From a bacterium (GTDB lineage Bacteria; Actinomycetota; Acidimicrobiia; Spongiisociales; Spongiisociaceae), in assembly GCA_028821235.1 (NCBI GenBank), contig JAPPGV010000011.1, positions 24,082 to 88,081 of the forward strand: DNA of 64,000 nt. The letters run 5' to 3'. Every line of letters begins with the position of its first letter. The first letter of the stretch is position 1. The notes beneath the pieces were generated by a model that was not told where the DNA came from, made no database searches, and saw only the letters and a program-made list of their open reading frames with translations. Position numbers and translations under genes: made by a program. This document shows positions 2,871-63,587 of the stretch, one piece after another.

Positions 2871-3701
2871 CTACTTGATGCCTCCCTGGGTAACTCCCTC
2901 TATGACGAACCGCTGACCGATGAAGAACAGGATACCCACGGGGAGTATTCCTATGACGGCCGCAGCCATCAACATGTTGATGAAGACGGCGCCCTCCGTC
3001 TGGAACGAGACCAAGCCCAGCTGAACAACTCGCAATTCTGCATCGGCTGTGACGAACAGCGGCCATAGAAGTGCGTTCCACGACCAGATGAACGTGATCA
3101 GAAAGACGGTCACCGCCGCTGCCCGTACAAGGGGAAGCCCGATCGACCAGAAGGCCCTGGCCTCCGAGCTGCCGTCCACGTAAGCCGAGTCGAACAGGTC
3201 ATCGGGTATTCCCAGGAACTCCTGGCGGAACATGAACACCGCGAACGCCCCGGCCATCCATGGCACGACCAGAGCCGCGTAGGTGTTGTACCAGCCGAGA
3301 TCGTTGATGAGCACGTAGTTGGCGATGAAAGTGGCCTCGAAGGGGATCATGAAGCTGGCCAGAACCAGCATCAGGATCACCCTGCGTCCCCTGAACCGGA
3401 TCCGCACCAGCGCATAGCCCGCCAGAGCGCCGAACAGCACGTTCCCGCTCGCCGAGAGGGTGGCCACGAACAGGGAGTTCATTATCCAGCGCGCCATCAT
3501 CGTCTCGCGGAAGATGTCGATGTAGGTGATGATGGACGCCGTTTCGGGAATGATGGTGGGAGGTACGAGCAAAGCCTCGTCAAGGGGCTTGAGGGAGGTT
3601 GTCACCATCCAGTAGAGGGGCGCCAGGGCGAAGGCGCACAGCACGAAAAGGACAAGGTGGGCTGCCAGCCTGGTCTGGGGGGCATTGTGGCCGGTGGCCA
3701 T
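2871..3701 (-). CDS. Sugar ABC transporter permease, MalG/UgpE type
   Basis: A 276-residue inner-membrane permease with about six hydrophobic segments. The cytoplasmic EAA-type loop is recognisable around DDLFDSAYVDGSSEARAFWSIGLPL, where the ATPase would dock. The ATG start at 3701 shares a base with the TGA stop of the upstream permease (TGATG), so translation is coupled. Length and layout fit the MalG half of family 1 sugar importers. No matching ATPase gene is present nearby. Many actinobacterial sugar importers use a shared MsiK-type ATPase encoded elsewhere, and this may be such a case. Confidence 0.9.
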   Translation of the reverse strand: MATGHNAPQTRLAAHLVLFVLCAFALAPLYWMVTTSLKPLDEALLVPPTIIPETASIITYIDIFRETMMARWIMNSLFVATLSASGNVLFGALAGYALVRIRFRGRRVILMLVLASFMIPFEATFIANYVLINDLGWYNTYAALVVPWMAGAFAVFMFRQEFLGIPDDLFDSAYVDGSSEARAFWSIGLPLVRAAAVTVFLITFIWSWNALLWPLFVTADAELRVVQLGLVSFQTEGAVFINMLMAAAVIGILPVGILFFIGQRFVIEGVTQGGIK

Positions 3702-4711
3702 CACGCCGTCCCCGCCGTGTAGTGGACCCACCGCCGGCTCAACCGGAACTGGAGCCAGGTGACCACCAGGATGATCAGGAACAGGGCGGTGGCCGTGGCC
3801 GCTCCCAAGGCGAACAGGTTGTCGCCCCAGAACTGCCGGTACATGAGCATCGACAAGGTTTCTGTCGTCCGGGCCGGGCCACCCTGGGTCAGGACGAAGA
3901 TCGTGTTGAACTCGCGCAGGGCGAACACCAGGGAGACGACCACCACGAACAGGATCGTCGGGGAGAGCACCGGGATCACCACCCTCCGGAGGATCTTCGG
4001 TTCGCTGGCGCCGTCCACGCGGGCCGCGTCCAGAAGATCCGGGTCGATACGGGTCATGCCCGCGTACAGGATGAGAACGGTGAACCCGAGCATCTGCCAG
4101 AACCTGACCAGCAGCAGGATGGCCATGGCGATGCTCGGGCCCTCGGCCCAACCCGGAACGGTGGCGCCGAACCAACCCGCCACCAGTTCGACGACACCGG
4201 TCGAGTCGAGGATCCACGACTGGCGCCTTATCCCGAATGGCTGGAGCGACGCGTTGACGACTCCGGTCGGGCTCGGGGCGAACACGAGTCCCCAGACGAG
4301 GCTGGTGGCGACGGTGGGAACGATGAAGGGAACGAACAGCAGGAGCCGGTAGAGGTAGCTCTTGCGGATCACGTAGTGGAGAAGGTAGGCGACCGGGATG
4401 GCCACTATCACAGTGACCGGCACCACGAAGGCGAAGAAGAAGGTCACCTTCACCGAGTTCCAGAAGTCGCCACCTTGGACAAGGTCGATGTAGTTCGTGA
4501 GGCCGATGAACTCGGCGCCGGCCAGGGTCCAGTTGGTGAGCGAGAGGTAGATGTTGCGACCGGTCCCGTACAGGTGGAATACCCCAATGACCAGCAGGGC
4601 AGGCAACAGGAAGAGGAAGGCAGTGGCCGGCGAACTCGTGCGAGAGGAACGCCGCCAGCGCCATCGACCCGCGGACGTCCACCGCGAACCTCCTGCGACC
4701 ATACGTGACAC
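3701..4711 (-). CDS. Sugar ABC transporter permease, MalF/UgpA type
   Basis: A 336-residue membrane permease, first gene of the importer operon. After a basic N-terminus it has about six transmembrane segments. Its EAA loop reads DPDLLDAARVDGASEPKILRRVVIPVLSP, with the usual VDGA core. It should pair with the MalG-type permease that follows. The start could be GTG at 4711 or ATG at 4702; neither has a strong ribosome site. The operon order is permease, permease, binding protein, PEP-hydrolase-like enzyme, epimerase. This suggests that uptake and first processing of a sugar, polyol or sugar acid are encoded together. Confidence 0.9.
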   Translation of the reverse strand: MSRMVAGGSRWTSAGRWRWRRSSRTSSPATAFLFLLPALLVIGVFHLYGTGRNIYLSLTNWTLAGAEFIGLTNYIDLVQGGDFWNSVKVTFFFAFVVPVTVIVAIPVAYLLHYVIRKSYLYRLLLFVPFIVPTVATSLVWGLVFAPSPTGVVNASLQPFGIRRQSWILDSTGVVELVAGWFGATVPGWAEGPSIAMAILLLVRFWQMLGFTVLILYAGMTRIDPDLLDAARVDGASEPKILRRVVIPVLSPTILFVVVVSLVFALREFNTIFVLTQGGPARTTETLSMLMYRQFWGDNLFALGAATATALFLIILVVTWLQFRLSRRWVHYTAGTA

Positions 4712-41392: not shown

Positions 41393-42082
41393 CTAGGAAC
41401 CCAGCGCCTTCATGGCCTCCCGCCTGCTGAGGGCTGAGAGCCGGCTGCGGTTGGCCTCTACGTAGCGGGTCACCGCGCCGGGGCGGGTCTTCGAATACTC
41501 CCGCAGCGCCCATCCGATCGCCTTGCGCAGGAAGAACTCCCTGCGGGCGATGGAAGGTTCGATCACGGCGAACAGGAGGCCCGGGTCGGTACGGTCCTTG
41601 AACCTGAGCTGGGCGAGGATTGCGGTCCGGCGCCGCCATATGTCGTCGTCCTCCGCCCACGAGAGCAGGACCGGGCGGACGTCCTCCGGGTAGGTGGCGA
41701 GCAGGTGGCCCATGTGCTTGCCGGCCAGCTGATCCACGTAGTCCCACCAGGCACCGGTGACGACCATCTCCTCCACCATCGAAAGGCGGTCCGGCCGCAG
41801 CCACCCCCGATAGGCCACGGCGTAGGCCAGTTCGATGGCCCCGTAACGCTGTTCCCGATGGGTGGCCGCCCGCCATATCCCGAGCACGGTCGTCTCCCAG
41901 GTATCGGGATCGGTCAGCGGATGGTCTCTGACGACCGCCCCGGTCAGGCGCCGCACCTCGGGAACCCGGACCCCGTGAAAGGGAAGTTCCGATTTCATGT
42001 ATCGCTGCTGGCCCTCCGCCCGGTGGGGATCTCCGGCGGCGGCGAGGCGGGCGATGAGATCGCCTCTCAGGGATGCGTCCAC
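41393..42082 (-). CDS. DNA alkylation repair protein (AlkD-like)
   Basis: A 229-residue HEAT-repeat DNA glycosylase-like protein. The AlkD landmark TGAWWDYVDQLAGKHMGHLL has the Trp-Trp-Asp that lines the DNA-binding groove. Other repeats are DPDTWETTVLGIWRAATHREQRYGAIELA and IARREFFLRKAIGWALREYSKTRPGAVTRYVE. Such enzymes excise bulky or cationic alkylated bases. The GTG start at 42082 (VDASLRGDLIARLAAAGDPHRAEGQQRYMKSELPFHG) matches the usual N-terminus; further in-frame upstream codons run through a non-coding element and are not part of it. The end converges with the metalloprotease-like gene. Confidence 0.9.
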   Translation of the reverse strand: MDASLRGDLIARLAAAGDPHRAEGQQRYMKSELPFHGVRVPEVRRLTGAVVRDHPLTDPDTWETTVLGIWRAATHREQRYGAIELAYAVAYRGWLRPDRLSMVEEMVVTGAWWDYVDQLAGKHMGHLLATYPEDVRPVLLSWAEDDDIWRRRTAILAQLRFKDRTDPGLLFAVIEPSIARREFFLRKAIGWALREYSKTRPGAVTRYVEANRSRLSALSRREAMKALGS

Positions 42083-42159: not shown

Positions 42160-42387
42160 CGCGAAAATCGCGCCAGCCCGGCGCCACCCGCCGGGCCCTC
42201 CCCCGCCGCCGCCACCGTGGTTCGGAGCGTGGTCGGCCATGCCCCGGCCAGGTGCGGGGTTCGGCGGCTCGCTCCATGAAGCCCTGTATGTTCCCTCCGG
42301 TCCGACCGAACCGATCGGCGGGAGCCTTCGGCCGGTGGTGGTGCTTGACAACAGGCAACCTATAGCAAGGTTATGACACGTTGAACC
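42160..42387 (-). repeat. Dispersed structured element, copy 1 (candidate non-coding RNA)
   Basis: This 228-base stretch aligns with 63207-63423 in the opposite orientation at roughly three quarters identity (by eye). Conserved blocks include GGTTGCCT, CAAGCACC, ACCGGCCGA, CCGATCGG and GGGCATGG-C-GACCACGCTCC. GGAGCG pairs with CGCTCC in both copies. Inside that helix, CCCCG pairs with CGGGG here where copy 2 has CCCGGC with GCCGGG. It lies in the leader of the alkD-like gene on the same strand. No reading frame is conserved. Confidence 0.6.
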
Positions 42388-62984: not shown

Positions 62985-63206
62985 GGCTAGCGATCAGGGC
63001 CGGAATCCGGACGGAGGACGGCAGCATGTCGGTGCGGCGGGGCGAAGCGCCCGTTGCTGTTCTCCGGGAAAGGTGAGCCGTTCATCCCCTGCCGCCCCTC
63101 GCGCTGCGGGCCATCACCCCGAATCTACCAACCGGGCCGCTCGCGAAAGGACGCGGACGGCGCCGCGCCAGGACCCGGAAGAACTTTTCGCGTTCTCGCA
63201 AAGAAG

Positions 63207-63423
63207 GGTTGAAAACGTCACAGCCACGCCATATGTTGCCTATCGCCAAGCACCTATACCGGCCGATGGCACTGGTCCGATCGGAACGGCCGGCCCGAGG
63301 GAATATCAAGGCTTATGGAGCGAACAGCCGACACCCGGCATCCAGCCGGGCATGGTCGACCACGCTCCAACAGGATGGGTGGTGGCGGGGGAGGGGCCCG
63401 GCGCGGGGCACCGGATTTTCGCG
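63207..63423 (+). repeat. Dispersed structured element, copy 2 (candidate non-coding RNA)
   Basis: This 217-base stretch aligns with the reverse strand of 42160-42387. Shared blocks are GTTGCCT, CAAGCACC, ACCGGCCGA, CCGATCGG, TATGGAGCGAA and GGGCATGGTCGACCACGCTCC. The helix GGAGCG/CGCTCC is kept. The inner hairpin is CCCGGC/GCCGGG with loop ATCCA, while copy 1 uses CCCCG/CGGGG with another loop. The next U after GGAG (5' side) pairs with A here and G in copy 1. Confidence 0.6.
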
Positions 63424-63440: not shown

Positions 63441-63587
63441 GTTCTTGAGGCAGAGGGCGTCATATATGGTGCCCTGTTCCTCAGGTTCAGGGCGTCACCT
63501 GTGGTGTTCTGTTCCTCAGGTTTGTGGTGTTGGGGGTTCTTGAGGCGGAGGGCGTCATATATGGTGCCCTGTTCCTGAGGTTTGTGG
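63441..63587. repeat. Three tandem units of about 47 bp upstream of the deacetylase-family gene
   Basis: Unit A (63441-63484) and unit C (63536-63587) share GTTCTTGAGGC-GAGGGCGTC, then ATATATGGTGCCCTGTTCCT and AGGTT. Unit B (63485-63535) is a degenerate copy (GGGCGTCACCTGTGGTGTTCTGTTCCTCAGGTTTGTGG). In A and C an imperfect 20-bp palindrome GGGC-GT-CATATATG-GT-GCCC is centred in the unit. Confidence 0.8.

Follow-up and report, generated by a model that had tools for sequence, protein, structure and literature searches.

The responses of bacteria to DNA damage are usually described in terms of the protein genes that they induce. In mycobacteria, the HNH/DUF222-like proteins of the 13E12 repeats are linked to the PafBC regulon. 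Known sponge RNAs, among them CsrB/CsrC and 6S RNA, are made from one to few loci, and the 6C RNA of the actinobacteria is known for its C-rich loops. MITEs and Correia-type repeats with promoters are short, intergenic and present in dozens of copies. In the sections of the published accounts consulted here, the LexA-independent promoters of the actinobacterial PafBC regulon (RecA-NDp, P1) follow the consensus tTGTCRgtg-8 nt-TannnT (PMC5656591), the HTH of PafB binds the -26 motif (PMC11804915), and the targets named are protein genes.

The stretch of DNA analysed here (hereafter the window) comprises 64,000 nucleotides of an acidimicrobiial genome (assembly GCA_028821235.1, contig JAPPGV010000011.1) and holds two inverted copies of an element that belongs to a dispersed family, with at least 40 copies in its own genome, pairs kept by compensatory changes and, in most of the copies sampled, a near match to the motif before recA. 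The element is probably a stand-alone small-RNA gene, predicted to be switched on by PafBC and likely to act in trans. It resembles the PafBC regulon in the -26 TGTC, the 8-nt spacer and the TAnnnT -10 hexamer, in the motif before recA and uvrB, in the presence of PafB-PafC and in the HNH/DUF222-like proteins among the motif sites, which recall the 13E12 repeats. It differs in that TGTC is followed by ACAC instead of Rgtg and in that 30 of the 48 exact sites precede a non-coding repeat. With CsrB/CsrC and 6S RNA it shares a predicted small structured RNA, a promoter of its own, an invariant motif and a dosage logic, but it occupies dozens of loci and has neither an Rfam match nor a known partner. 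The likeness to MITEs and Correia-type repeats lies in the short length, the intergenic position, the dozens of copies, the internal promoter and, for some copies, a direct repeat on either side, whereas the conservation of most sampled loci between species and the compensatory changes set the element apart, and no terminal inverted repeats were seen by eye. The 6C RNA is alike in being a small RNA (as predicted here) of the same phylum, but the element has an invariant G-run and no Rfam match.

Copies in the window and their relatives

A first-pass annotation, made from the letters of the window, had described two inverted copies alike over about 220 nt at roughly 75% identity. Pairwise alignment of positions 42160-42387 (minus strand) with 63217-63414 (plus strand) agrees with this, giving 77.0% identity over 204 columns (125 bits). 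The GGAGCG/CGCTCC helix around a GC hairpin that it proposed was found in both copies, together with the change of a neighbouring U-G to U-A (UGGAGCG/CGCUCCG in copy 1, UGGAGCG/CGCUCCA in copy 2) and the re-paired inner hairpin (CCCCG/CGGGG against CCCGGC/GCCGGG). A model, R1, built from 74 copies that include both window copies, matched the two as listed below, with the third-best match in the window at 17.2 bits (E 0.07).

42160..42387, minus strand: copy 1, whole element with promoter motif, core and tail (alignment, genome comparison)
42372..42378, minus strand: copy 1, -26 motif TGTCATA, one mismatch to TGTCACA (motif scan)
42357..42362, minus strand: copy 1, -10-like hexamer TAGGTT, 9 nt past the -26 motif (motif scan)
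42193..42350, minus strand: copy 1, RNA core (R1 match, 140 bits)
42302..42335, minus strand: copy 1, helix P1, CCGGCC/GGTCGG, with the self-complementary loop CCGATCGG at 42311-42318
42223..42276, minus strand: copy 1, helix P2, TGGAGCG/CGCTCCG, with the hairpin CCCCG/CGGGG inside
42193..42213, minus strand: copy 1, conserved G-run GGCGGCGGCGGGGGAGGGCCC
42160..42192, minus strand: copy 1, terminator-like hairpin with the tail TTTTCGCG at 42160-42167
63185..63197, plus strand: TTTTCGCGTTCTC, beginning 31 nt 5' of the copy 2 -26 motif, repeating the 3' tail of the element in direct orientation
63209..63423, plus strand: copy 2, whole element, start approximate (alignment, R1, genome comparison)
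63216..63237, plus strand: copy 2, promoter motif CGTCACA-N9-TATGTT, one mismatch (motif scan)
63244..63398, plus strand: copy 2, RNA core (R1 match, 162.5 bits)
63259..63293, plus strand: copy 2, helix P1, CCGGCC/GGCCGG, with the loop CCGATCGG at 63277-63284
63316..63369, plus strand: copy 2, helix P2, TGGAGCG/CGCTCCA, with CCCGGC/GCCGGG inside
63378..63399, plus strand: copy 2, conserved G-run GGTGGTGGCGGGGGAGGGGCCC
63399..63423, plus strand: copy 2, terminator-like hairpin with the tail TTTTCGCG at 63416-63423

The locus of copy 1 is common to six congeners (G001 and G003-G007), in which the element is alignable and the adjoining DNA largely not. The gene 3' of it (41393-41998, minus strand) encodes a DNA alkylation repair enzyme (PF08713), and the gene 3' of copy 2 a histone-deacetylase-like protein. 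Copy 2 keeps its place and strand in eight of the nine congeners, with the contig ending inside the element in G002 and G004. The same intergenic place in G009 (locus L380) holds an element on the opposite strand, which would fit either a hotspot or an old inversion.

Searches of the whole genome and of related genomes, as suggested in the first-pass annotation, recovered at least 43 distinct copies in the own genome and located the element in all nine congeners and in a further genus, g30. In the own genome at least 40 matches were obtained at E<=1e-3 (40 of the 177 candidates being scored), so the pair in the window is not a chance observation; five further matches on other contigs (C81, C128, C150, C110 and C148) bring the number to 45. 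Several of these matches lie at contig ends, and the 3' parts that are all that C95 and C152 hold might match 5' parts elsewhere, hence the lower bound of 43. With the sequence of copy 1, all 19 scored matches in each of the nine congeners were to the element. A comparison of the copy 1 DNA with 40 relatives matched 16, ten of them in the window's genus; three of those outside it gave a single match each, at E 3e-4 to 6e-4.

The models R1 and R2 each match 16 of the 296 genomes of the class, namely nine of the window's genus, G011 and six of genus g30, which belongs to a different family; scoring under strict filters covered the top 10 or 11 candidates of each genome, and weak members may thus escape. 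An exact pattern matched 118 stretches in the named genome collection, and the 80 of these that were listed comprise 69 of Acidimicrobiia, 10 titled 'bacterium' and one of Gammaproteobacteria by title. Two models find 8 copies in a 400-kb sample of G005, which would correspond to about 66 copies per 3.3 Mb genome if the sample is typical; the estimate is rough, since the sample was picked for long contigs and had hits known beforehand on both. All 8 copies are intergenic, in DNA with a coding fraction of 0.876. A single strict exact pattern for the 3' end, a weak probe of phage origin, had no match in viral_contigs.

The family divides into subfamily A, subfamily B, the g30 copies and the G009 type. 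Of 106 distinct copies, 85 had a recognised promoter, G-run and length; 74 of these make up set A1, and the eight labelled B form, together with L067, set A2, with L039 and L018 left out. Counts drawn from these copies lean to the well-conserved members because the copies come mostly from top-scoring hits.

Further repeats were seen beside some copies. An imperfect palindrome, TTCTTGAGGCAGAGGGCGTCATATATGGTGCCCTGTTCCTCAGG, forms a second repeat 3' of copy 2 (window 63442-63485 and 63537-63580); variants of it occur 3' of many other copies, and at the copy 1 locus in G005 and G007 only. At L368 of G005 (about 3629-3800), and also at L031 of G000, a decayed second element start with its promoter lies head to tail past the terminator and is now 5' of a short gene.

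Layout and fold of the predicted RNA

The layout, read from 38 copies of the own genome and the later sets, runs in the 5' to 3' direction from an often present TTGAA through TGTCACAC, 8 nt and TANGTTG to CGCCAAGCACC and helix P1 with its loop CCGATCGG, followed by AGGGAACA, helix P2 around the inner hairpin, AGGTGGTGGCGGGGGAGGGCCC, a hairpin and TTTTCGCG. The core is about 155 nt long in the examined copies. The copies of subfamily B (9 aligned) and of genus g30 (11 read) keep the same plan in different letters.

Covariation, a check proposed in the first-pass annotation, was found in P1. In the 20 copies of B and g30, the covariation score of this helix is 0.306, against 0.167 +- 0.023 in shuffled alignments (reached in 0 of 500) and at most 0.125 at slid positions, and 12 cells are changed on both sides (0 of 500 shuffles). 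Two of the five measures, double-change pairs (102 of 500) and further pair types (136 of 500), were not above the shuffles. In the 74 A copies 96.0% of cells pair, and slid controls in this subfamily reach equally many double changes. The four outer pairs of a closing helix, P0, are 99.7% paired in the same copies, with changes that are nearly all wobble-keeping. The stem score of P2 is 16.7, a modest gap from 14.4 for cross-group arms and 12.7 for shuffled ones (three A rows skipped, window copy 2 included). The RNAalifold consensus keeps P1 but gives CGCC and CGCUCC different partners within the G-run, and its covariation term is only -0.39.

The self-complementarity of the P1 loop is also kept, its score being reached in 0 of 500 and 1 of 500 shuffles. 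The loop CCGATCGG becomes TCGATCGA in 6 of the 74 A copies; in the B and g30 set A-U is replaced by G-C in 7 of 20 copies and by G-U in 3 of 20, and the outer pair does not form in 9 of 20. A hairpin cannot be closed by pairs that directly adjoin each other, and we therefore infer that the loops pair between molecules. In the G-run, 12 positions are G in 91-96 of the 96 copies. It could possibly form a G-quadruplex, and helix P0 would account for some of the conserved Gs. Pairing of the G-run as an anti-Shine-Dalgarno interaction was considered and dropped, the A of GGGGGAGGG being variable.

On its 3' side the G-run is followed by a U-run in 110 of 111 copies; in background windows, the majority of them coding, the figure is 6%. 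The terminator hairpins are barely more stable than their shuffles (median z -0.55; 78 of 110 lie under their own shuffled mean).

Each of the two copies in the window has the same orientation as the gene 3' of it, as a cis-acting leader would, and the G-run can be read as GGN codons of a coding repeat. Both possibilities appear very improbable, however. Across 65 rows, which include short pieces and some copies entered twice, 26 have a downstream neighbour of the same orientation, 25 one of the opposite orientation and 14 no called gene; this mixed orientation disfavours a leader, and a cis leader or riboswitch was rejected on it. The U-run after the element argues against a leader and a coding repeat alike. 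The GGN frame of the G-run lacks a start in 21 of 96 copies, its starts and stops are scattered, and a protein-coding repeat was rejected for want of a conserved frame with start and stop.

These results bear out the earlier view that a shared coding frame is unlikely. Among the options it had offered, an RNA family is supported, a non-autonomous mobile repeat fits the past of the family, and a leader element falls with the orientation count. Its remark that the element resembles no common bacterial RNA also agrees with the Rfam searches, in which the whole window gave at gathering score only a cobalamin riboswitch located elsewhere (RF00174, 26552-26682, 36.3 bits), the copy 1 region gave three matches at E 2.3-9.6, none at gathering score, and six loci with the A, B, g30 and G009 types gave none at E<=0.5. 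Thus, with no credible Rfam match, many copies, compensatory changes and no conserved frame, the element is best read as a dispersed family of structured RNAs that is as yet undescribed. Literature searches on PafBC, on small or structured RNAs and on Acidimicrobiia showed no such family among the matches listed, which leaves its absence from print unproven. The promoter motif, the terminator-like tail and the link to DNA damage go beyond the first-pass annotation.

The promoter-like motif and its probable link to the DNA-damage regulon

Exact matches to TGTCACA-N9-TANNNT number 48 in the own genome, against one for the reversed pattern and none for a spacing of N12. Thirty of these sites are copies of the element and 18 are not. 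A downstream gene is called at 16 of the latter, on the same strand in all 16 cases; one of the remaining two is without a called gene and the other, close to the end of a contig, adjoins CGAACATATGTTCG, a sequence resembling a LexA box. The genes at the non-element sites encode RecA, UvrB, SSB, RmuC and a DprA-like protein, three HNH proteins (one of them matching DUF222 below the cut-off), an AAA_5 protein, two DNA methylases, a member of the exo/endonuclease/phosphatase family, an ARPP-1/VWA protein, an IS1595 transposase and two small unknowns. At the HNH-endonuclease genes of loci L070, L086 and L105 (G000) the motif stands 7-8 nt 5' of the called start.

The recA gene is preceded by the motif in 16 of 16 genomes from four genera and two families, exactly so in 15. 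Among the copies of the element, TGTCACAC-N8-TANNNT is exact in 52 of 106 and within two mismatches in 92 of 106; the motif was not found in 8 of the 106 distinct copies, nor in one of the 8 copies of the G005 sample. All 11 copies read from genus g30 carry CANNNT, not TANNNT, and the motifs of the G009 copies are degraded. A search with up to two mismatches shows no enrichment in the 64-kb window (5 found, 11 expected), so the weight of the motif comes only from the exact counts at genome scale. Compared with the mycobacterial Rgtg, the R position is A; in place of gtg, CAC is usual in the element and CAG before recA.

The genome also holds a pafB-pafC pair, in which the HTH domain of PafC scores 96.4 bits (cut-off 32) and the WYL protein directly before it is PafB by position; by eye, the two genes that come next resemble tatA and tatC. 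The motif shares the layout of the PafBC DNA-damage promoter and is, we infer from its letters and neighbours, a putative PafBC-dependent promoter, the link to the regulon being strong but indirect.

The same RNA family could alternatively stand outside the damage response, if its motif served as a promoter element of general use or were bound by some other regulator. The TTGAA about 17 nt 5' of the -10, which would make a fair -35 box in many copies, is in favour of this, as are the IS1595 transposase, the two DNA methylases, the AAA_5 ATPase, the ARPP-1/VWA protein and the two small unknowns among the non-element sites. The fixed N9 spacing, the conservation of the motif at recA across two families, the sites at uvrB, ssb, rmuC and the dprA-like gene, and the presence of PafBC with a published promoter layout so similar nevertheless make a general promoter unlikely. 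In most of the copies sampled, a sequence very similar to the recA motif stands at the start, and the RNA is therefore likely to be made on DNA damage.

Spread of the family and its proposed role

The manner in which the element came to occupy so many loci bears on its function. It may be a non-autonomous mobile element with a damage promoter, now mostly immobile, whose unit runs from one TTTTCGCGTTCT to the next and was spread by a recombinase or by tandem duplication, and whose RNA may lack a cellular function. In 400 kb of G005 the 12-mer TTTTCGCGTTCT occurs solely at element 3' ends (6 of 6), and 19 of 101 copies have TTTTCGCGTT, with one mismatch allowed, in the 60 nt 5' of the -26 motif, 18 of them at a spacing of 30-31 nt; the background is 0.001 per 60 nt. 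Ten copies in G009 read very alike by eye. Together, these three observations make it likely that the family spread as a unit in the past. The opposite-strand element at the copy 2 locus of G009 and the promoter remnant that follows one copy head to tail at L368 are also in keeping with mobility.

However, for 78 of 120 copies a neighbouring gene also flanks a copy in another species, with side and strand unchanged, and copy 2 is in place in eight of nine congeners. The identity to the best paralogue is 70-92% in all 36 long copies of the own genome, and no terminal inverted repeats are seen by eye in the alignments. The copies outside G009, at loci stable in G000-G008, look settled. Mobility would moreover account for the spread of the element and not for its upkeep, and the P1 pairs are kept by compensatory changes. 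Such a mobile element, whose RNA may do nothing for the cell, is a minority reading, to be given a rather low probability.

For the favoured explanation, a stand-alone RNA gene switched on by PafBC, a course of events may be outlined. Single-stranded DNA arising after damage would induce the whole set of elements together. Transcription would start about 7 nt past the -10 and stop at the hairpin, giving an RNA of about 180 nt, and the many copies would yield a burst of it. The self-complementary P1 loops could let the copies pair mutually by kissing loops, and the invariant G-run might be the binding site of a conserved partner, which would most likely be a protein, sequestered or gathered in the course of repair. 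A sponge or assembly function of this kind is a proposal made by analogy; its logic would be that of CsrB or 6S RNA, and the partner step is the weakest of the mechanism. In its full form, in which some 60 genes per genome would fire on the PafBC signal and self-pairing RNA assemblies, built on kissing loops and the G-run, would hold a repair or transcription factor, the proposal is speculative and stands a small but real chance of being correct. Were it true, the non-coding part of the PafBC regulon would outnumber its protein genes.

As it stands, one structured RNA family accounts for 30 of the 48 exact sites of the recA-type motif in this genome, more than all the protein genes together. 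If the family is expressed, it would open up the RNA side of the PafBC response, provide a natural many-copy family for finding the partner, and offer a ready test of why one RNA gene spreads over dozens of loci and stays.
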